A stretch of DNA of 64,000 nucleotides from Synechococcus sp. KORDI-49 (GTDB lineage: Bacteria > Cyanobacteriota > Cyanobacteriia > PCC-6307 > Cyanobiaceae). The position numbers and the translations under genes were made by a program. Every line of letters starts with the position of its first letter. Position 1 is the first letter of the stretch. The notes beneath the pieces were generated by a model, which saw only the letters and a list, made by a program, of their open reading frames with translations, did not search any database and had not been told where the DNA came from. This document shows, in pieces, positions 1 through 47,250 of the stretch. The stretch spans positions 2,173,163-2,237,162 of the forward strand of contig NZ_CP006270.1 in assembly GCF_000737575.1 (NCBI RefSeq). Reading direction: 5' to 3'.

Positions 1-1359
1 GAACAGTGTGGTTGGCACACTGATTTCACCTGAATCACTAATCGAGGCGACAGTATCCACAACGCTGTTGATCCCGTTGTAGAGATTGACCCACTTGGTT
101 ACCGATCCGTTAGGTGTGCCTTCTCGGCCAAGATCGATGATATTGTGAAGTCTACCTGCTCCCAGTAGATTTAAGCCTGCAATTGAGAATTCGGTTTCCA
201 GGATGTCTACAACTGGCTCCATAGGATCCAGAAAATAATCATTCAGGAAGTCTGAGATCTTTACAAATGGTCCACTGGCTGCTGCGAGTTGGTCACCCAG
301 GCTGACGGTGATATCTCCTGGGCTTAGCAGGAATGGTGTCTGTTCAAATGACAGACCACCTGAACTTCCACCCGAGAAATGACCGCCATACAACATATCC
401 CCATCGATCGAGATCACATCTCCCAGCGATGCACTGATCGTTGGATCAAGTTCAAAACCTCCAAGAAGATTGGCCTCAATATCCAGTTGGCTGATATCTG
501 CCAGAGGGACTAATCCGCTGCCACCATCACCATCTTGTAGGTCCAGCTCAACGGTGACAAATCCACTTAAGAAAGGATCTTCTTCAGGTGCAATGATCGT
601 TAGATCACTGCCAACTCGTTCTGGCGCACCCAATCCCAGTGTGTTTTCGTCTGAACTTGATGCAGCTAGTTCCAGGAAAGCAATTGACCCTTCTAAGGGC
701 TGAGTACTTTCGAGATAGGCACCTGCAACAATTTCTGCATTTCCTTCTACTCCCCCCTTGATCTTTTCTCTCAGAAGCTTCATGTCTTCTGGCATGTCAC
801 TCATTGAGGACACACCTGCTTCTGTATCAATCAGAAATGCCGATTTAAGATCTGTCGGGTTGGCATCGAAGGCAAATCCGACGGATCCACCTGCAAAGAG
901 ATTCAGATCAAATCCACCTCCAAGATTTATCAGATCATCAGCCAGACTGATGTCAAAATTAAGCGGTGTTTTGTATTCAAATCCATCAAGGCTTAAATCA
1001 AAACGGTAGTAGTCAGGCATGTCTCCTGCCATGGTGCCCTGGTTGTTCGCAGCACTCATGTCTTTCAGGTATCCTTCCTTGAACTGATCTAGATTTGATC
1101 CTCTCAGTCTTTCAAACCCATCCAGTCCTCGAGCATCTGTATTGCTTAGGTCATAAACAGTTTCTTCGCTTGTATCATTCTGCACGTTTTTAATTTTTTC
1201 TCGGAGCTTGGTTGCATCTGTTGGCTGCAGTGTTTGCAGAATAATCAAATGATCATGCTTGGTTTTGTCATCAGTTTTTCGCAATAAGACATACTCTTTG
1301 TCAAGCTCGGAATCGTTAAGGTCAATCTTCTGATACCCAGCGGGAAGTATCAGGATGTC
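1..1359 (-). CDS. Downstream continuation of the giant modular protein (partial, other frame)
   Basis: The minus strand is open with no stop from 1359 to the left edge, about 453 codons, one frame away from the 3,120-codon gene upstream. I read it line by line and found no stop. The product has the same style as the upstream protein: acidic, no cysteine, glycine- and aspartate-rich beta-like stretches (for example FAFDANPTD). At the left edge it has a WVNLYNG helix start that matches WVNLINE near residue 446 of the upstream part. It is therefore the continuation of that protein, separated by a one-base shift at an A8 run, and not a separate gene. No start codon with a ribosome binding site is evident near 1359. 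The true C-terminus lies outside the window. Confidence 0.8.
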
Positions 1360-4300
1360 ATTTTGATTTTTTTTCCTCACCATTCACGAAGGCTTTGCTT
1401 TCTTTCAATATGATGTGTGTGTATAAGTCCTCTTCGGCTTCGATGCCATCATCGCCGAATTCTTCTACTTCATACGTGATGGCGTAATCTGTCATGCTTG
1501 TGTACCGAGCACTTGTGTCCAAGGATATTTTTTTATCGACCGGTGCTTTTCCGTCTACGCAGAAGTAAGCTTCGAAATTGGGTCGCGGATCAAGATTGAG
1601 CGAGAGGAATTCAACGCCAGAGAGGGCTTCGTTGAGTGTTGGAATCAGATTCCAGGGTTGTAGCTCTTCTCCTTTTTCTCTGACGCTAGCTATCGCTTCT
1701 TCTGCTGTATCAAAATGAACAGTGAACTCTTTAATTGTATCGCCTGCATCGGGGGCAAATAGTCGCATCAGTGGATTGTCTGCTATGCCTTCTTCAATGC
1801 TCGTCTGCACATTGTCAACCGTTTCTTCGATCTTGGCGAGGATGAACAGAACCTGGGACAGGCCAAACCCACTGCAGTTCAGTAAATCGCCGATGTCATC
1901 CACCGCTTGAACACCATCTGCGTAGGCGTCTTCAAATGCCTTGAAGGTATTCATTATTTGCTGACCGGTCTGTTCGGCCATTTCGTAAAGTATTTCTGGT
2001 TGTTGTTCTGTTCTAAAATCAAAAGCTGTTTCGAAGGACAGATCAGAAAAACCACCCGCACCCTGCTGATCAATTCCTGCTGCAGCTCCTGCGGCAATCA
2101 GCGATGCGTTGGGATCATCTGGTGTTGCCGAGACGATGACTTCTCCAGTGTTCTTATTTTCAACGATGAATTCAAGACCTGATACGGAGAACCAGGCGCT
2201 TGCTTGTATCTCTGTTGCATCAAGATTTAAATTCGCAAATTTATCTTCATCAAGGACATCAGGGATGTCAAATCTCTCTAGGCCTGCTGGTTCTGGATCA
2301 AAGAAGAAGACATCACCAGGTGATGTTGCATCCAGATCCAATCCGAAGCCGAGTGCTGCGTTCACATCTACACCGACATCCCATGTCGACATCAGTTTAA
2401 AACTGTCGGCAAAATCTGGTTTTTCAAACTGAAATAACTCAATTGCCTCTTCGATAATGTCTGTGGTTTCACCTGCCGACCAATCCAGCGAATCACCAAA
2501 GTCGAGCAAAAATGTGTAGCGGATCGGATTATCCGATTCTGGATCTGGGCACTCCCCATCAAAGACGTCAACGCTTGGTACTTCGACCAACTTCAGAGTT
2601 ACCTCACCCATTCCGATGTCATCCATTCCTTCGTTGAATGCGACGACCCATTCCTCAGGGGGAAGTACATAATCCGTGTATTTGCGCACCTCTGCGGCAA
2701 TAGTGTTGAATCCCGTCTCCACGGATGCGAAGGAGAATTCAAATTCATCGGCAAATCCCTTAATAACCGGGTCACCACCAAGCCCTCCACTCAGTGTTTT
2801 ACCTAAGTCTTCAATTCGGTCTGCCAGACCTGTCAGCATGGCCAGCCAGTTCGCTGGTGAGAAGTTTCCATCATTGAGCCCGCACAATGCTTCATCTACA
2901 GCATCCTGTACGGCATTAATTGCATTTGATACGGTATCTGCAGTGGCACCTAATGGATTACCGGCTAATACGAAATCACCGATATCTGTAGCTTTGAAAT
3001 TGAATGCTGCTGCGGCATTTGCGCCACCATTCACGACATCGATATTGGATAAAAGGTCTAGTCTTTGTTCTGTTTCTTGGCTGACAGAAGTGTCGTCGTT
3101 ATACCAGTCCAACGCGATTGCTGCATCCATTCCCAGGGCATCTCGTACGTCAGCGAATTCGACATAGGCGGTTGTTCGTAGGGTTATTTTTGGATCTGCA
3201 TCTACAGAGTTAAAGTCGCCTCTCACTTTGACTCCTTCAGGCAGAACTGCCGCGTACACTCCCGCTTCAGAGTCCAGCCTGAGTTCCATCTCGATCGGTG
3301 TTGTTATGGCCATCTCTGTTATTGCCTCTTCAGTTTCTTTCTTTTCTGTATCGACTACAAACAGATGTTCACTGCTGATATACTGCTCAAATGATACTGT
3401 GATGCTGTCGGGCCGATCTTCGTCTTTTTTCTCTTTGCTTGTATAGATCGAGCCAAACTTCTTGTCTCCCAAGGGGAAACTTACTGAATTGTCTGTACTG
3501 TTATAAACTACGTCTTCATTGCTTATCAGGAAACGGTCTGGTCTTTGCAGGCGATCGACACCTGCTCCAAACTGCAGGAGTATTTCTGCCATACTTGCTG
3601 TGTAGTCTTCTCCGGTTGTGTTGTAGCTCCATAGGGAGTCTTCATCTCCCTCCGGCCAATAGTCACCGATTGGACGTGCTGCACGTGGATCAAGATAGAA
3701 GAAACTACCCAACTCTGTGGCACCGGCGTCATAGCCGAAGATCATTCCCGCATTAAATTCAAGTCCGTACGACAGATCGGCCTCATATCCATCCGCCACA
3801 TTGGCCAAGGCCTGGGCAATAGGGCTTGATGTGACAGCATCTGGTAGCAGATCGATGAATTGCTCCGCTTTGAGACTGAGAGAGTCTCCAAACGTGTATG
3901 ACCCTCCAAGACCATTGGGATTTGTGAGTAGCAGCGTATCTTCTCCTTGATCATCGATCATCGGAGTGAGTCGGTATCCCCCTGCCGATTTGTCGTAGAG
4001 TGCAAATCCTTTTCTGCTCTGTTCCCATTCAAGATATATTTCTTCTGAGTTGTGCACCTCGAGATTGTCTTTTTTCAGTACCATACTGCTGAGTGAGCTT
4101 CCATCTGATTCGGACATCGTCAGTTGATATCTGTTACTGCCCTCTGTGAGTTCACCGAAGCTTTTTTCGGGTAACGCAAGCACCCATTCATTATCTTCAG
4201 TGCCATCTTCATGATGGGTTGTTACTTCCTTGAAGTGCGATAAATCGAGTATGTGTTCTGTATTTCCGGTTGTGCTTAGTTCATACAGATAAATCTGTGC

Positions 4301-7300
4301 TTCGCTGCTGAACGGTGTATGTGTGGATAGGACAACACCGGCATCAAGTTGTAAATCATCAAAATACGCCGAAGCATCTTTATGTATTTCTAGGTCTGTA
4401 GAGTCACTGTCATTACTTGTTTTTAATTGTATTTTTGCTTGGCTGTTTGTGGTGCTCGGTGTGAATGTATACGCATACAGACCTTCAACTTCTTCTCCCT
4501 CACTGGTGCGGAGTACTTGTTCAAGATTCATTGCCTGGATATTCACAGCCTTGTGTGCATAGAGATCACTATGACTGACTTTTAATTTAATGCTCTCCGC
4601 TCCATCGTTTGTCCCTGCAATGATGATTCGTTTCGCTTCTTCTGATCTGCCATTGAAGATTGCATACCCTTGGTACTCTTCACTCCATTCGATATAGACT
4701 ATATTTGTATCGATACCTGTGCCCTCTGCAGTTTGGATGTTGGCGCTTGTTAGTGCACTTCCATCAGCATCAGTGAGTGTGATCTCGAGTCTTTTATCTT
4801 CAGTCGGCGGTAAGCCAAATGTATTCAACGGCAATGTCAGTACGGACTGTTTATTTCCTTCATCTTCGATATCGATAAAATCTGACATCTGTATTGTTTC
4901 TTCCCGATGTCCTTCTACATTCAGCCCGTCTTTTTCAACAGCGGCGAACTGGGCTTCCTGCTCTTTGCTCAGTAAAAATGTAGCGGCAACATGATCTTCG
5001 CCATTCGATTCCAACAGAATATCTCCTTTGCTGAGTCGCATTGCACTGGGTACTCCGATCTCTTTATCGTTGCACTCAGCTTCCATGCTTTCAGGGCCTG
5101 CAAGTAGCCTGAGATGAATGTCGAGATCATTATCTCTGAATATTGTATTGACTTTTTGGATAAAACTTTCTGTCGTTAACCATTGGTCTCTGAACTCTGA
5201 TAGTTCATCGCCTACAGCTGCAAATCCCTGGGCCAGCTTTTCTGCATCGTCAAGCCAATCGCTTGGCATCCAATCCGGCAGTTCTTCCGTTTGATCCTTC
5301 AAGACCGCCAGTTGATCCACCAACTGATCCGACATATCGTCCATCGTAGTGATAAATTGATCAAGAAAGCCAAACCAACCTGCGGCACACTCTGGCATCG
5401 TGAGTGAACTGAAGGAATCAATCAATTTCTGCACATCATCCACGAGTGCCAGGCCTGCTTCTTTGACTTCTTGTTGGATATCATTGCCTAGTTGTACAAG
5501 GTGTTTCTCAGTGAGATTCAGCCGAACGCCACCTTCTAATTCTGTTTCTTTCAGTGCATCAGTCAGTTTTTTCGTGGCCTCTTCTTCATTGATTGCATCC
5601 ACTCCCATGCCTATTCTTAAACTCATCGTTTCATAGGCTTCCTCCGGTGTCAGCTCAAAGACTCTTGTGCTTCCATCATTGTTTTTAAGTAGTGGAATAC
5701 TGATGTTCAGTTTGCTGAGTTCAAACCCAGCTGCAATAGCAAGTTCTTGTTCTGATAAATTCACTTGGCTGTTATTATCCAATCGTTTTTCAAAGAAAGC
5801 CTCTTCTACGTTATTTTCGCTAATATCCGGCCAGTATCCATCAAGGCCCTCTGTTTCAGTATTGACTAGTTCGAATACTGATCCCGACTCATCGCAATAC
5901 TCTTTAAGTGTCAAACTGCCTGCTGATTCCAAATTAAAGTCGAACGTTGCACTGATGTCAGCAAATAGTGTGGAGGCTATATCCACGAGCATGGCCCCGC
6001 CCTTGAGACCCCGCTCCTCGAGCATCTCCGCAAATTCACCACCCTCCAGGCTTAATGTTTGGGTGAGGCTCAATTCATTGCTTGGGATCAAGGCGTATTG
6101 GTCAACTTCTCTTTCAACGCCATTAATCAGCTCAATTCCGCTGCTGTGTTCCATTCTCATAGGAACGGAGGCTGCGATCAACATACTGTTGATGTTTTTG
6201 ACGAGTGCCTCTGGATTCATGACCGAATCCTGAAAACGCATCATCGCGTTGCTGATATCGTCTAGTTCCTCACTAATACTACTGATTAATTGAACTGGAT
6301 TGCCGCTCAAATTGCTAGGCAATCGATCGAGCAGTTCTGCTCCCTTGTCGAATCGATTGGATACTTCATCAAGCAAGTTGGCAATTGCTGGAATCAGTGT
6401 GCGCCAGCATCGTAGTTCCGCAGAATCAAGGTCAAAGTCGAGGTCACTGACGAGATCGTTGACCTCATCGAGAAAGGCTTCACCTAGTTGTGCTCCAAAA
6501 TCCTTCGCTACTTCGAATACCGGATTTAAATCCAGATCGAGGTCAAGATTCATTCCAGCATCTATTTCCAACTCATCGTTTTCGGTGCGATTCACGTCTA
6601 TGGCGGTACCCAGGGTCAGTGAGAATGATCTCTCCGGGTCTTCCAGCGCTGACTTAATTACTTCTCCCTCTTCGTTTGTTATATCTGTATTGAGTTCAAG
6701 GTTTGCCAGTTCGATGCCAAGTGACGCTGTGATTTCACTGTTTGTCGGTGATGTTTCATCACCCAGTGTCAGTCCTAACGTGTGTTGATCCCCAGAGCTT
6801 CCTTCCGGCCAATCGTTGATTTCTTCATCAAGGCCTCTCGGGTCGAAGCTAAATGCATCGGTTACTGGAGCAAAAAAGTCGTAGGCAAAGACGATTCTTC
6901 CATCGAGATCCATCTCAAGATCAATGGCTGCGTTGATGTCTGCACTGATGGCCTCAAATACAGAATCCAGCCCATCTGCTAAGGACTTGTGTCCAGATTT
7001 TGCGAGAGTTAAAAGCTCATCTTTCGAGAACTCGTATCTTCCATTCAGTTCACTTCCTTCGTGATAACTTAATTCAAAGACATAGAGCGATGTTTCAGAC
7101 GATGTTCCTGGTTTGATGATCAGGTCAACCTCTCCTTCACGGTGAAAACCTAGATCGATTGAAACCCCTGATATATTGTCTCCATTAATCGTACCCTCTG
7201 GATCTAGCCTGATACTTAAGCCTGGTTGGGTTGAATCAGCTAACTCATTTACAAGACTATTATTGCTATTTTCTGTTCTTGCCAATGTTTGATCGAGTGC

Positions 7301-10300
7301 CGTCTCGTTAATCACTCCAGTTTCTAGCAATATTTGCAACGCCGAATAAGCTCGTAATTTCGCGAGATCATGATTCGCAGCATCTTTCAGATTGTCTTCA
7401 TTAACTGATGCATAATTGAGTAACTTCCAGATTTTATTATCGATTGATCCTTGGGCAGAGCCTTCGATTTCAGACATGCGTTTTAGGATCTCTTCTGTAG
7501 CCGATTCGGTTAATGACTCTGCACTGGTTGATGCGACAATGGCAACTTGTCTTTGCCCATCCCCCAAGGAAGCAAATGGAAGTATTTCCGGCATTCGTCG
7601 ACTGAGTTGAATTGGATTAATTTCAAAGCCATTCTCTATAAAATTGTCAAAAACTGAGGTGGTTAAAACTGCGTTGCTGTCTATTGCCTCATTTAATTTG
7701 AAGGAGCTATCTTTCAGTTTCCATGTTCCAGTGCCATCTCCATTCTTCGTGCCTACAAAGACTTCTTCACTTTGGATTTCTGTATAACCATTTCCATCAC
7801 CTCTATCAACCATTACTGTGGATGCAGGATTTGCATAGGAGATGGCAATTTGCTTTGGGATTATATTTGTCGTTGCTGGTTCAATGTTCAATGTACTAGG
7901 TTGGCTTTTCAAATGAATGTCGATAACGGGCTCACCTGTTTCTTCTTCAATAGCACGTGTGTTTAGATCAATGTTTCGCGTATACACAGTCTCTGATCCG
8001 ATCTCATGTGTTTCTATACCGTTTTTCCAATCGATATTGACGATAATTTCCGTTGTTTCCTTGTTGCCATTTTTATTTTCTTGGTTGATGTCTAATAGTG
8101 TTAGCTGATAATTGAGTGTATTTTCCGTGTTCATTTCTATTTTTTTAACTACGATTCCTTCTTCCAGTTTTTTGCCATACTCGTGAAATGTTTCAAAGTA
8201 TTCTCTCTTTGTCTCGGTGACATCTCGCCATAATGCTTCTGTATTATTTTCATCAGTCGCTACGTGATGGTCACTTCTAGTTTCACTTTGAACGCTCTGT
8301 TGTTCCAGGTGTTTTCTTGTTAGTGCTTGACCAGTTTCGATACCTTTATAATAAATGTATTGAAGACCCTTTGGTGGGTTGTTGCCCAGATAGTGAGCTT
8401 CTACGCCATTTTCTTTGTCTACGATCACAGTGACTGTTTGAGTTTCCTCCCCTTGTGCATCTACCTTCTCGACTTCGAGTTTGTAGTGGAGTGGCCGGCT
8501 TGTATTGACGGATAGAGTCTGAAGTTTCAAGCTATTCTCTTCAGTAGCTTTCTCTGAATATTCGAATCCTTTAATTAAGTCGGATTCAAAGAGCTCCCTT
8601 GTGGTTTCACTTGCTGCCCACTTGCCGTTTGCTTCCTCAAAATCAACTGGTAATGTGAGTACACCATTTTGATCTTCGAATATGGTGTTTTCTTGTAGCG
8701 TTATCAAAAGAGATTTTTCTCCATTTTCACTGGAGACCAGATCAACGCTTTCAGGAATGATTGTTTGCTCACCGATGACAACAACTATTTCGTTCTCAGA
8801 AATACTGCTTCGATTAAAATCTATATTTTTGCTAGCAAGGTCAAGTTTGTATGTCAGTCCAGTGATGTGCACCGCTTGCTCATTGATAAATGAGGTGATA
8901 GCTATACCATTGGTATCTCTTAATATATTTTCCTCTAGTTGTAGAATTTTGAAGTTTTGTTCTTCTGATGTCGTTGACCAATCTGCATCCTCACTTACTT
9001 GGAATTCTCCGGACTCTGCGAATGGCTGTTGATCATTGGTGCTGTCTGCTGCGAGTGTGCTGAAGTTCAGAATCTGTGGGCTCCCTATGTATTCTTGCGT
9101 TTCCGTTGGCCTTTTATCGCTCGACGGCTTCGCCAGTAAATTGAGGCTTAATCCCGTTTCATATCTGTTCAGTTCATCATTGATGAGTTCAACAAATTCT
9201 TCAGAATCAAAGATTTCATTTTTTAATGCGGAGATCCCTTCTGCGGCGCTTCCTAGACCGCTGCTGAATTCTGTGTATGTTTTTTTTGCACTTTCTGGAA
9301 CCCAGTCCGGCAGTTCCCCAATGCTTTCAGATGCTTCTGCAATATTACCGACTAAATCGCTGACCTCGTTGATTAAGTTCACCCATGATGCCAAGTCGGT
9401 ACCAACATCAAAGGCGTCACTCAGCGCAGTGATTCGATCTTCAACTGCCTTGCCTATGTTTTCTACAATACTTGATGAGACATCTGTGTTTAACTTGATA
9501 TAAAAATCCGAGCTTGTCTCATAGGTCATTCCTTCCCCGATGTCTTGTAAGGCGACCAAACCTTTGTCATACGTTGGGTTTTCCTTGGTTGTCTGAAGAT
9601 CCAAATTTGCACTTCCACCGACGACCAGTAGATTTTCGATATCGCTTTGGCTAATACCCAGCCATGTTGGAATCTCGGTGGTTCCACTGACGACATTCCC
9701 TTCAAACAGGACAGATAAGTCTTGAGAGTGGTTTCGATCCGGATTGATTCCATGTGTATCAATTTTGACGATATCACCTGAATCTTCGGCATCCAAATCT
9801 ATTTCGAGCCGTATCCCGCCTTGCAGCTCTGCTTCAAGGTTGACTTCAATTTCTGGAAGATCATTTAGAACTTCTAAATCTATCCCTAGTGATGTACCTA
9901 GAAATTCTTTCAACGGTAATTCAATTATACTTTTTAGTTTTGCCCCGCCAAAATCAATGACCAGCTCACGTTTTGGACTGTCGAGTCCATTTGCTATTTC
10001 TGTTAAAGTTGGTAATGTTGAAGTTATGGTGACGCTGCTTTTATCGCTTTCGTTAAGGCCAAGTGGCTCGTTAATTGTTTCATTCAGTATTGTTTGTAAC
10101 TCATTTGCGACCTGCGAAGGCATTAACTCTACTGATTCAATTAGTTCTTGCAGTTCGCTCTGGAAATCAATGAAAGGACTGATGTAGTCTTCTGTGAGCG
10201 CCTCCAGCTTATTGTCATCAAGGAACTGAGCTAATGCACCTGCTGTGCTAATACTTGTTTCAATACTTTCTTTGATTGTTTCTATCAGCCCTGCTACCCC

Positions 10301-10720
10301 TTCGAGCAATGAGCTCAACGGTTGACTTGACCAGTTTGCGGTTTCATATAGAGATGTGTATTTATTGTCGCTAATGAGATTTAGAACAGCCTCCTGATAG
10401 CTGCCGTTGTACCCGCTTTGTGCCAGTCCCATCGACTGCAGCGCTTCCCATTGTCCGTCGTCTAGTTCGTACAGGATCTGCCAAGACAGAAGATCATCAG
10501 TGCCGATGCTGTCCAGTTTTTTCCAGGCCTCTTCGCCCAAGGACAGGAATTTGGTGGCTTCCTCTGGGGCCAGCCCCTCAAACCATTCCGTCCAATTTTC
10601 GCTGCCCAGCAGATTCTCCAGCTTGATTATCGACATGGGGAGGTCAACCGACAGTTCTCTAATTCTATTTATAGCTGTCTGCTTTTTTGTTTTCTTCGCA
10701 CTTTTACGGGCTTCAGTCAA
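1358..10720 (-). CDS. Giant modular repeat protein, probable surface or secreted protein
   Basis: This frame of 3,120 codons has no function I can name. It begins with a lysine-rich stretch and has no N-terminal signal peptide. It alternates helical segments (about residues 420-530, 1430-1530, 1760-1860, 2600-2700, 2930-3040) with beta-like segments. Two beta segments are tandemly duplicated (about 705-810 with 835-930, and 1948-2063 with 2160-2288). Residues 1-1437 have no cysteine. The eight cysteines at 1438, 1609, 1778, 1883, 2613, 2724, 2949 and 3054 bracket four helical segments, as expected for disulfides outside the cytoplasm. The start is TTG at 10720; the first in-frame ATG is at 10636, and neither has a clear ribosome binding site. 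GC is far below the neighbours, suggesting transfer. Very large cell-surface proteins are known in marine Synechococcus (SwmB is one), but I do not claim homology. The stop at 1358 follows an A8 run and is probably not the true end. Confidence 0.8.
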   Translation of the reverse strand: MTEARKSAKKTKKQTAINRIRELSVDLPMSIIKLENLLGSENWTEWFEGLAPEEATKFLSLGEEAWKKLDSIGTDDLLSWQILYELDDGQWEALQSMGLAQSGYNGSYQEAVLNLISDNKYTSLYETANWSSQPLSSLLEGVAGLIETIKESIETSISTAGALAQFLDDNKLEALTEDYISPFIDFQSELQELIESVELMPSQVANELQTILNETINEPLGLNESDKSSVTITSTLPTLTEIANGLDSPKRELVIDFGGAKLKSIIELPLKEFLGTSLGIDLEVLNDLPEIEVNLEAELQGGIRLEIDLDAEDSGDIVKIDTHGINPDRNHSQDLSVLFEGNVVSGTTEIPTWLGISQSDIENLLVVGGSANLDLQTTKENPTYDKGLVALQDIGEGMTYETSSDFYIKLNTDVSSSIVENIGKAVEDRITALSDAFDVGTDLASWVNLINEVSDLVGNIAEASESIGELPDWVPESAKKTYTEFSSGLGSAAEGISALKNEIFDSEEFVELINDELNRYETGLSLNLLAKPSSDKRPTETQEYIGSPQILNFSTLAADSTNDQQPFAESGEFQVSEDADWSTTSEEQNFKILQLEENILRDTNGIAITSFINEQAVHITGLTYKLDLASKNIDFNRSSISENEIVVVIGEQTIIPESVDLVSSENGEKSLLITLQENTIFEDQNGVLTLPVDFEEANGKWAASETTRELFESDLIKGFEYSEKATEENSLKLQTLSVNTSRPLHYKLEVEKVDAQGEETQTVTVIVDKENGVEAHYLGNNPPKGLQYIYYKGIETGQALTRKHLEQQSVQSETRSDHHVATDENNTEALWRDVTETKREYFETFHEYGKKLEEGIVVKKIEMNTENTLNYQLTLLDINQENKNGNKETTEIIVNIDWKNGIETHEIGSETVYTRNIDLNTRAIEEETGEPVIDIHLKSQPSTLNIEPATTNIIPKQIAISYANPASTVMVDRGDGNGYTEIQSEEVFVGTKNGDGTGTWKLKDSSFKLNEAIDSNAVLTTSVFDNFIENGFEINPIQLSRRMPEILPFASLGDGQRQVAIVASTSAESLTESATEEILKRMSEIEGSAQGSIDNKIWKLLNYASVNEDNLKDAANHDLAKLRAYSALQILLETGVINETALDQTLARTENSNNSLVNELADSTQPGLSIRLDPEGTINGDNISGVSIDLGFHREGEVDLIIKPGTSSETSLYVFELSYHEGSELNGRYEFSKDELLTLAKSGHKSLADGLDSVFEAISADINAAIDLEMDLDGRIVFAYDFFAPVTDAFSFDPRGLDEEINDWPEGSSGDQHTLGLTLGDETSPTNSEITASLGIELANLELNTDITNEEGEVIKSALEDPERSFSLTLGTAIDVNRTENDELEIDAGMNLDLDLDLNPVFEVAKDFGAQLGEAFLDEVNDLVSDLDFDLDSAELRCWRTLIPAIANLLDEVSNRFDKGAELLDRLPSNLSGNPVQLISSISEELDDISNAMMRFQDSVMNPEALVKNINSMLIAASVPMRMEHSSGIELINGVEREVDQYALIPSNELSLTQTLSLEGGEFAEMLEERGLKGGAMLVDIASTLFADISATFDFNLESAGSLTLKEYCDESGSVFELVNTETEGLDGYWPDISENNVEEAFFEKRLDNNSQVNLSEQELAIAAGFELSKLNISIPLLKNNDGSTRVFELTPEEAYETMSLRIGMGVDAINEEEATKKLTDALKETELEGGVRLNLTEKHLVQLGNDIQQEVKEAGLALVDDVQKLIDSFSSLTMPECAAGWFGFLDQFITTMDDMSDQLVDQLAVLKDQTEELPDWMPSDWLDDAEKLAQGFAAVGDELSEFRDQWLTTESFIQKVNTIFRDNDLDIHLRLLAGPESMEAECNDKEIGVPSAMRLSKGDILLESNGEDHVAATFLLSKEQEAQFAAVEKDGLNVEGHREETIQMSDFIDIEDEGNKQSVLTLPLNTFGLPPTEDKRLEITLTDADGSALTSANIQTAEGTGIDTNIVYIEWSEEYQGYAIFNGRSEEAKRIIIAGTNDGAESIKLKVSHSDLYAHKAVNIQAMNLEQVLRTSEGEEVEGLYAYTFTPSTTNSQAKIQLKTSNDSDSTDLEIHKDASAYFDDLQLDAGVVLSTHTPFSSEAQIYLYELSTTGNTEHILDLSHFKEVTTHHEDGTEDNEWVLALPEKSFGELTEGSNRYQLTMSESDGSSLSSMVLKKDNLEVHNSEEIYLEWEQSRKGFALYDKSAGGYRLTPMIDDQGEDTLLLTNPNGLGGSYTFGDSLSLKAEQFIDLLPDAVTSSPIAQALANVADGYEADLSYGLEFNAGMIFGYDAGATELGSFFYLDPRAARPIGDYWPEGDEDSLWSYNTTGEDYTASMAEILLQFGAGVDRLQRPDRFLISNEDVVYNSTDNSVSFPLGDKKFGSIYTSKEKKDEDRPDSITVSFEQYISSEHLFVVDTEKKETEEAITEMAITTPIEMELRLDSEAGVYAAVLPEGVKVRGDFNSVDADPKITLRTTAYVEFADVRDALGMDAAIALDWYNDDTSVSQETEQRLDLLSNIDVVNGGANAAAAFNFKATDIGDFVLAGNPLGATADTVSNAINAVQDAVDEALCGLNDGNFSPANWLAMLTGLADRIEDLGKTLSGGLGGDPVIKGFADEFEFSFASVETGFNTIAAEVRKYTDYVLPPEEWVVAFNEGMDDIGMGEVTLKLVEVPSVDVFDGECPDPESDNPIRYTFLLDFGDSLDWSAGETTDIIEEAIELFQFEKPDFADSFKLMSTWDVGVDVNAALGFGLDLDATSPGDVFFFDPEPAGLERFDIPDVLDEDKFANLNLDATEIQASAWFSVSGLEFIVENKNTGEVIVSATPDDPNASLIAAGAAAGIDQQGAGGFSDLSFETAFDFRTEQQPEILYEMAEQTGQQIMNTFKAFEDAYADGVQAVDDIGDLLNCSGFGLSQVLFILAKIEETVDNVQTSIEEGIADNPLMRLFAPDAGDTIKEFTVHFDTAEEAIASVREKGEELQPWNLIPTLNEALSGVEFLSLNLDPRPNFEAYFCVDGKAPVDKKISLDTSARYTSMTDYAITYEVEEFGDDGIEAEEDLYTHIILKESKAFVNGEEKKSK
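1367..1374 (-). other. A8 homopolymer at the frame break in the giant gene
   Basis: On the coding strand the gene reads GAG GAA AAA AAA TCA AAA TGA and stops. With seven A instead of eight it reads GAG GAA AAA AAT CAA AAT GAC and stays open to the left edge. The shift could be a sequencing or assembly error, a real inactivating or phase-variable change, or a site of polymerase slippage. Confidence 0.8.
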
Positions 10721-12946: not shown

Positions 12947-13020
12947 CGCCCCCTGATGGATTCGAACCATCGACCGACTGCTTAGAAGGCAGTTGCTCTA
13001 TCCAGCTGAGCTAAGGGAGC
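12947..13020 (-). tRNA. tRNA-Arg (anticodon TCT)
   Basis: The 74-base sequence folds as a cloverleaf. The acceptor stem is GCTCCCT with AGGGGGC (one G-T pair), the D-arm contains TAGCTCAGCTGGATAGAGCA, the anticodon stem ACTGC/GCAGT encloses the loop CTTCTAA, and the T-arm contains GGTTCGAATCC. The discriminator base is G and CCA is not encoded. The anticodon TCT reads AGA/AGG arginine codons. It sits where base composition changes from the AT-richer left region to the GC-rich backbone. Confidence 0.95.
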
Positions 13021-47194: not shown

Positions 47195-47250
47195 GGCGAA
47201 GTCCCCGGCTTGACCGATTATGGCCAAGGGATCCTGTTGGGCGAGCAGCC

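Follow-up and report, generated by a model that had tools for sequence, protein, structure and literature searches.

A frame break at an A8 run in a giant gene of Synechococcus sp. KORDI-49 probably reflects a homopolymer sequencing error

Does a run of eight adenines truly end a giant reading frame of Synechococcus sp. KORDI-49, does it let one gene make two products, or is its length wrong in the deposited sequence? We analysed a window of 64,000 nucleotides (G000:C1:2173163-2237162, in a single-contig genome of 2,585,813 bases), where a first-pass annotation had reported a frame break at this run. The break is genuine in the deposited letters, with conserved coding sequence on both sides: a minus-strand open reading frame of 3,120 codons with a TTG start (1358-10720) passes through the run and meets a TGA stop shortly 3' of it. 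The start of a relative (MSTIKLENLLGSENW) favours the ATG at 10636 (MSIIKLENLLGSENW), which leaves an upstream frame of 3,092 codons. The features at issue are, in window coordinates:

1367-1374, minus strand: A8 run at the frame break (T8 on the plus strand)
1358-10636, minus strand: upstream frame, 3,092 codons from the ATG at 10636 or 3,120 from the TTG at 10720, ending in the TGA at 1360-1358
1-1383, minus strand: in-window part of the downstream frame, which extends to window coordinate -32516 and counts 11,299 codons from stop to stop
9280-9287, minus strand: second A8 of the giant gene, read through in one frame and used as a control

Dropping one A had been said to open a frame of 453 codons. 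That frame does reach position 1, but it does not end near there; tracing it through the neighbouring 40 kb outside the window gave the full extent listed above. With one A fewer, the upstream and downstream frames become one gene of ~14,383 codons (43,153 nt from ATG to stop as deposited), in which the A8 marks the single break. The WVNLYNG repeat match cited as a likeness between the two frames was overstated: a search of the gene for this exact word gave one occurrence, beyond the break, and the upstream part has WVNLINE once; their local match covers 9 of 24 residues with an E value of 0.10 for a single comparison.

The first-pass annotation had also proposed comparing the tract in related genomes. 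A scan of genome contigs with a 461-aa piece of the protein, from which the window's own record was possibly omitted, returned two loci (L007 and L008). The former belongs to the metagenome-assembled genome Synechococcus sp. CO36386bin_29, shares 77-86% protein identity with the giant gene (86% over the 461-aa piece) and reads across the junction in one open reading frame, 6,860 codons long in 21 kb and at least 14,486 codons long in the contig, being still open at the contig end. The stretch between the conserved codons is 33 nt long in this relative and 46 nt long in the window; the relative has neither an A run nor a frame change there. The latter locus (TMED177) begins after the junction and is uninformative on continuity, and an AlphaFold prediction of the relative's junction region (3 sequences; mean pLDDT 31.7) was likewise uninformative; a scan of viral contigs with an upstream 400-aa piece found no relative. 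The argument for continuity, as read from these sequences, is one from a single relative, CO36386bin_29. With that single frame across the junction, the earlier suggestion that the protein exceeds 3,570 residues is well supported.

Within the 46 nt that separate the last and first codons aligned to the relative, the A8 is the sole run of at least five identical bases. When we simulated run lengths from A5 to A11, the downstream frame stayed open to the window edge with A7 and A10 only, and adding one A to the run led to a stop after 9 codons. That the A8 itself causes the frame change is uncertain, because the loop around it is variable (46 nt versus 33 nt in the relative). By itself the tract is unremarkable: the gene holds two A8 tracts against 2.3 runs of at least eight expected from a first-order Markov estimate, that is, A8 occurs at chance level.

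How, then, did the frame come to be broken? The frame break is probably a 454 homopolymer sequencing error, which the first-pass annotation had named as the outcome that would do away with a biological reading. This is the likeliest cause because the KORDI-49 data are 454/Newbler data. For KORDI-49 and two other KORDI strains, the published description names 454 GS-FLX Titanium as the sequencing platform, Newbler 2.3 as the assembler, and PCR and primer walking as the means of closing gaps (PMC7522525); such closure, another method, might have covered the A8 site. In the error figures reported for 454 GS 20 consensus sequences of plastid genomes, more than 97% of errors fell at homopolymers, A or T made up over 95% of the error-associated runs, and 79% of homopolymer errors were insertions (PMC1564139). 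An A8 overcall fits this published pattern. If this explanation is correct, the two apparent frames would be one ~14,383-codon gene with a wrong homopolymer length in the deposited sequence. Most simply, pyrosequencing would have overcalled A7 as A8, although an undercall of A10 would also fit; translation in the cell would then follow a single unbroken frame, without slippage or frameshifting. We thus infer a fault in the sequencing rather than in the DNA, and, explained as a machine's misreading of a run length, the frame break would most likely be ordinary as a phenomenon.

The main competing explanation, which we regard as possible though clearly less probable, is a real and recent one-base replication slip, in nature or in culture, that split the gene. 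The upstream product would then end after ~3,090 residues, without the RTX and C-terminal regions, and the remainder would be untranslated or restarted internally, for example at an ATG at 1383 or 1059. A runs of such length are natural slip sites, and the gene is accessory, so that its loss could be tolerable: the 461-aa piece was found in 2 of 59 genomes of the genus, family and class (KORDI-49 itself and G025), and an upstream 999-aa piece in 1 of 34 genus genomes (itself), many of the genomes behind both counts being incomplete. Against a real slip stands the sequencing of KORDI-49 by a method prone to exactly such an error.

A second point bearing on this choice is whether the assembly contains other breaks of the same kind. 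A search of the genome for runs of at least eight A gave 28 overlapping matches, which merged into 22 distinct tracts. Six of these on the A strand and one on the T strand lie inside a frame open for at least 49 codons on each side, the giant gene's second A8 among them. The break pattern fitted two of the 22, the A8 at 1367-1374 and an A10 at G000:C1 785267 (L013/L046); we rejected the A10, which forms, on the other strand, the T tail of a hairpin of terminator type with ten G-C pairs. By the frame criterion, then, only the A8 at 1367-1374 breaks a gene, with the remaining tracts judged from frame length alone and not against relatives, and some of them near the ends of open reading frames. 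For runs of at least seven C, the first 30 loci along the contig (out of 217 overlapping matches) gave 27 distinct tracts: 16 are read through with at least 60 open codons on each side on some strand, none shows the break pattern and 11 do neither, although open frames can arise by chance in this G+C-rich genome. Finally, the 49,868 bp of the window between 13 and 64 kb that matched open reading frames of G021 (2,789,000 bases) or G024 contained no gene-internal break. Four candidate rows from this comparison, at three places near 47235, 61433 and 32550, were judged by eye to be stop-to-stop frames running past the gene start, or antisense or alternative frames. Since the samples checked hold no other homopolymer break, such error appears uncommon in this assembly, and a real slip therefore stays a serious rival; one isolated sequencing error is nevertheless compatible with otherwise intact long runs.

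Selection on the two parts gives further information on the age of any real break. Against CO36386bin_29, dN/dS was 0.112 upstream (3,069 codons) and 0.128 downstream (10,659 codons), and next to the junction it was 0.071 just before (497 codons) and 0.102 just after (496 codons); these Nei-Gojobori values are rough, dS being high and reaching 1.8 in upstream windows. Low and alike on both sides, they indicate that the gene evolved as a unit, and with the two parts kept as one gene, any true break would therefore be recent. In a three-way comparison with CO36386bin_29 over 5,526 downstream codons, the ratio on the branch of the window was 0.19 and that of TMED177 0.26 (uncorrected counts, with 534 differences unassignable and the three sequences about equally distant), so that the window's branch shows no sign of relaxed selection over these codons. 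Nor did we find a second lesion in ~14,380 codons. The truly broken gene that the first-pass annotation offered as an alternative keeps its place as a serious, if less probable, rival that lacks the relaxed selection or further lesions of a decayed gene, and a slip that left selection on the downstream part unrelaxed must have been very recent.

If the A8 were instead real and variable in the population, a ~14,400-residue protein would be switched with a 3,090-residue form, or slippage would make both side by side; we consider this highly improbable as a whole. In its switching form, replication slips between A7 and A8 would act as an on/off switch for the giant surface protein in a fraction of the cells, as at a phase-variable locus. 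The position of this long run, close to though not at the start of a surface-protein gene, would suit such a switch, as would the finding that among A5 to A11 the full frame comes from A7 or A10 only. We nevertheless judge it very unlikely: CO36386bin_29, the sole relative covering the site, lacks the tract, which is therefore not conserved as that of a switch should be; the gene's two A8 tracts match the chance expectation; and ~3,080 codons precede the run, so that even the off state would yield a huge protein. On phase variation at homopolymers in Synechococcus, a limited literature search returned nothing beyond a general review.

The second form, in which RNA polymerase or the ribosome slips at a true A8 so that a short product is made together with the full-length protein, is extremely unlikely in our view. 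A runs are slippery in general, and selection is still strong beyond the break. RNA polymerase can also slip without a stimulatory RNA structure. However, the frame must shift by +1, which takes the loss of one A from the RNA, the rarer deletion type, and one added A meets the stop after 9 codons. Transcription errors at homopolymers reported for Buchnera were mostly insertions: homopolymers held 151 of the 157 insertions but only 16 of the 57 deletions (PMC5574713). We also detected no stable RNA structure 3' of the run (z -0.64 over 83 nt), and the run is missing from the relative. The two products by polymerase slippage at A8 that had been suggested thus find no positive evidence here, since the relative lacks the run, no RNA structure was detected and a deletion is needed.

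What kind of protein would a whole gene encode? The downstream part contains 28 RTX stretches together with PA14, Big_9, Cadherin_5, FG-GAP, Big_12 and Laminin_G_3 domains, and neither the upstream open reading frame nor the 461-aa piece matched a Pfam family at E values up to 0.1. RTX, Ig-like and cadherin-like repeats thus occur in one giant frame, as in giant RTX-type surface proteins. The product is predicted from its sequence to be a modular RTX/Ig/cadherin-like surface protein, with export and surface location suggested by its domains and kind. The gene is remarkably long and joins an established group of giant exported proteins in marine Synechococcus, among which similarities between strains are described as rare (PMC4949707). 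We did not meet this giant gene in print within a limited literature search. Two stretches inside the giant protein (L003:7487-19999, minus strand, downstream frame) match the C-terminal domain of apocytochrome f (PF01333, E 3.5e-10), which is unexpected there; the NCBIfam cytochrome f match to these PF01333-like stretches is well under the family cut-off. Compared with the downstream frame, the TMED177 sequence (L044, G025) falls blockwise in nucleotide identity from 84% to 72% to 67% over 17 kb, as if the gene were a mosaic.

The surroundings and the rest of the genome offer several further observations. The giant gene has a G+C content of 45.5%, against 60-68% for the window outside the gene, taken in 4-kb blocks, and this low value is suggestive of an acquired island. 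A tRNA-Arg (TCT) lies at window 12947-13020 on the minus strand, ~2.3 kb upstream of the giant gene and near the rise in G+C from 44% to 60%, and its site is possibly the island edge. Past the other end of the gene, a convergent gene (L003:5189-6793, plus strand) encodes BspA-type leucine-rich repeats (PF13306) followed by tandem APAEEVREEPT repeats. Another giant open frame, 8,785 codons long, is present in the same genome (C1 9100-35457, plus strand; L088/L089), with many stretches like the cadherin-like C-terminal region of the first. We considered whether this frame was broken off from a preceding 1,800-codon frame and rejected the idea, as an opposite-strand frame of 737 codons lies between them. 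At L090 ~5889 (genome C1 ~1523889), open reading frames of 2,736 and 422 codons follow each other in the same frame and have similar C-termini (DIDNSGTFD... and DIDQNRNIDL...), which the C-terminus of the giant gene resembles. The internal stop at L090 5889, with its 422 open codons beyond, was a further candidate break; as both frames end in a similar C-terminal stretch, we read them as two genes, and the common stretch is perhaps a shared anchor.

The distinction between these explanations has practical consequences. If the break is an error, one ~14,383-codon gene lies hidden in the annotation, and lists of giant genes or pseudogenes that include KORDI-49 are wrong at this point. If the A8 is real and variable, the locus would serve to switch a giant surface protein at the population level. 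Giant surface proteins of marine Synechococcus, SwmB among them, have been linked to swimming and grazing defence (PMC4949707).

Set beside known systems, the locus most resembles 454 homopolymer indel errors, sharing with them an A8 placed exactly where the frames join, an unbroken counterpart of the gene in the relative and 454/Newbler data for the strain; it differs in that the other long runs examined in the KORDI-49 assembly are intact. With a frameshift pseudogene formed by homopolymer slippage it shares a one-base frame break at a run, but it shows neither relaxed selection nor a second lesion in ~14,380 codons, traces that a very recent break would not leave. Transcriptional slippage and programmed frameshifting likewise place a homopolymer at the junction of two frames, but here the relative has no such run, a deletion is needed and no RNA structure accompanies it. 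As a protein, the product is likened by kind, not by sequence, to SwmB of marine Synechococcus WH8102 (10,791 aa), which is likewise described as huge, modular, of exported type and present in few strains (PMC4949707); the giant frame of KORDI-49 is the longer of the two.
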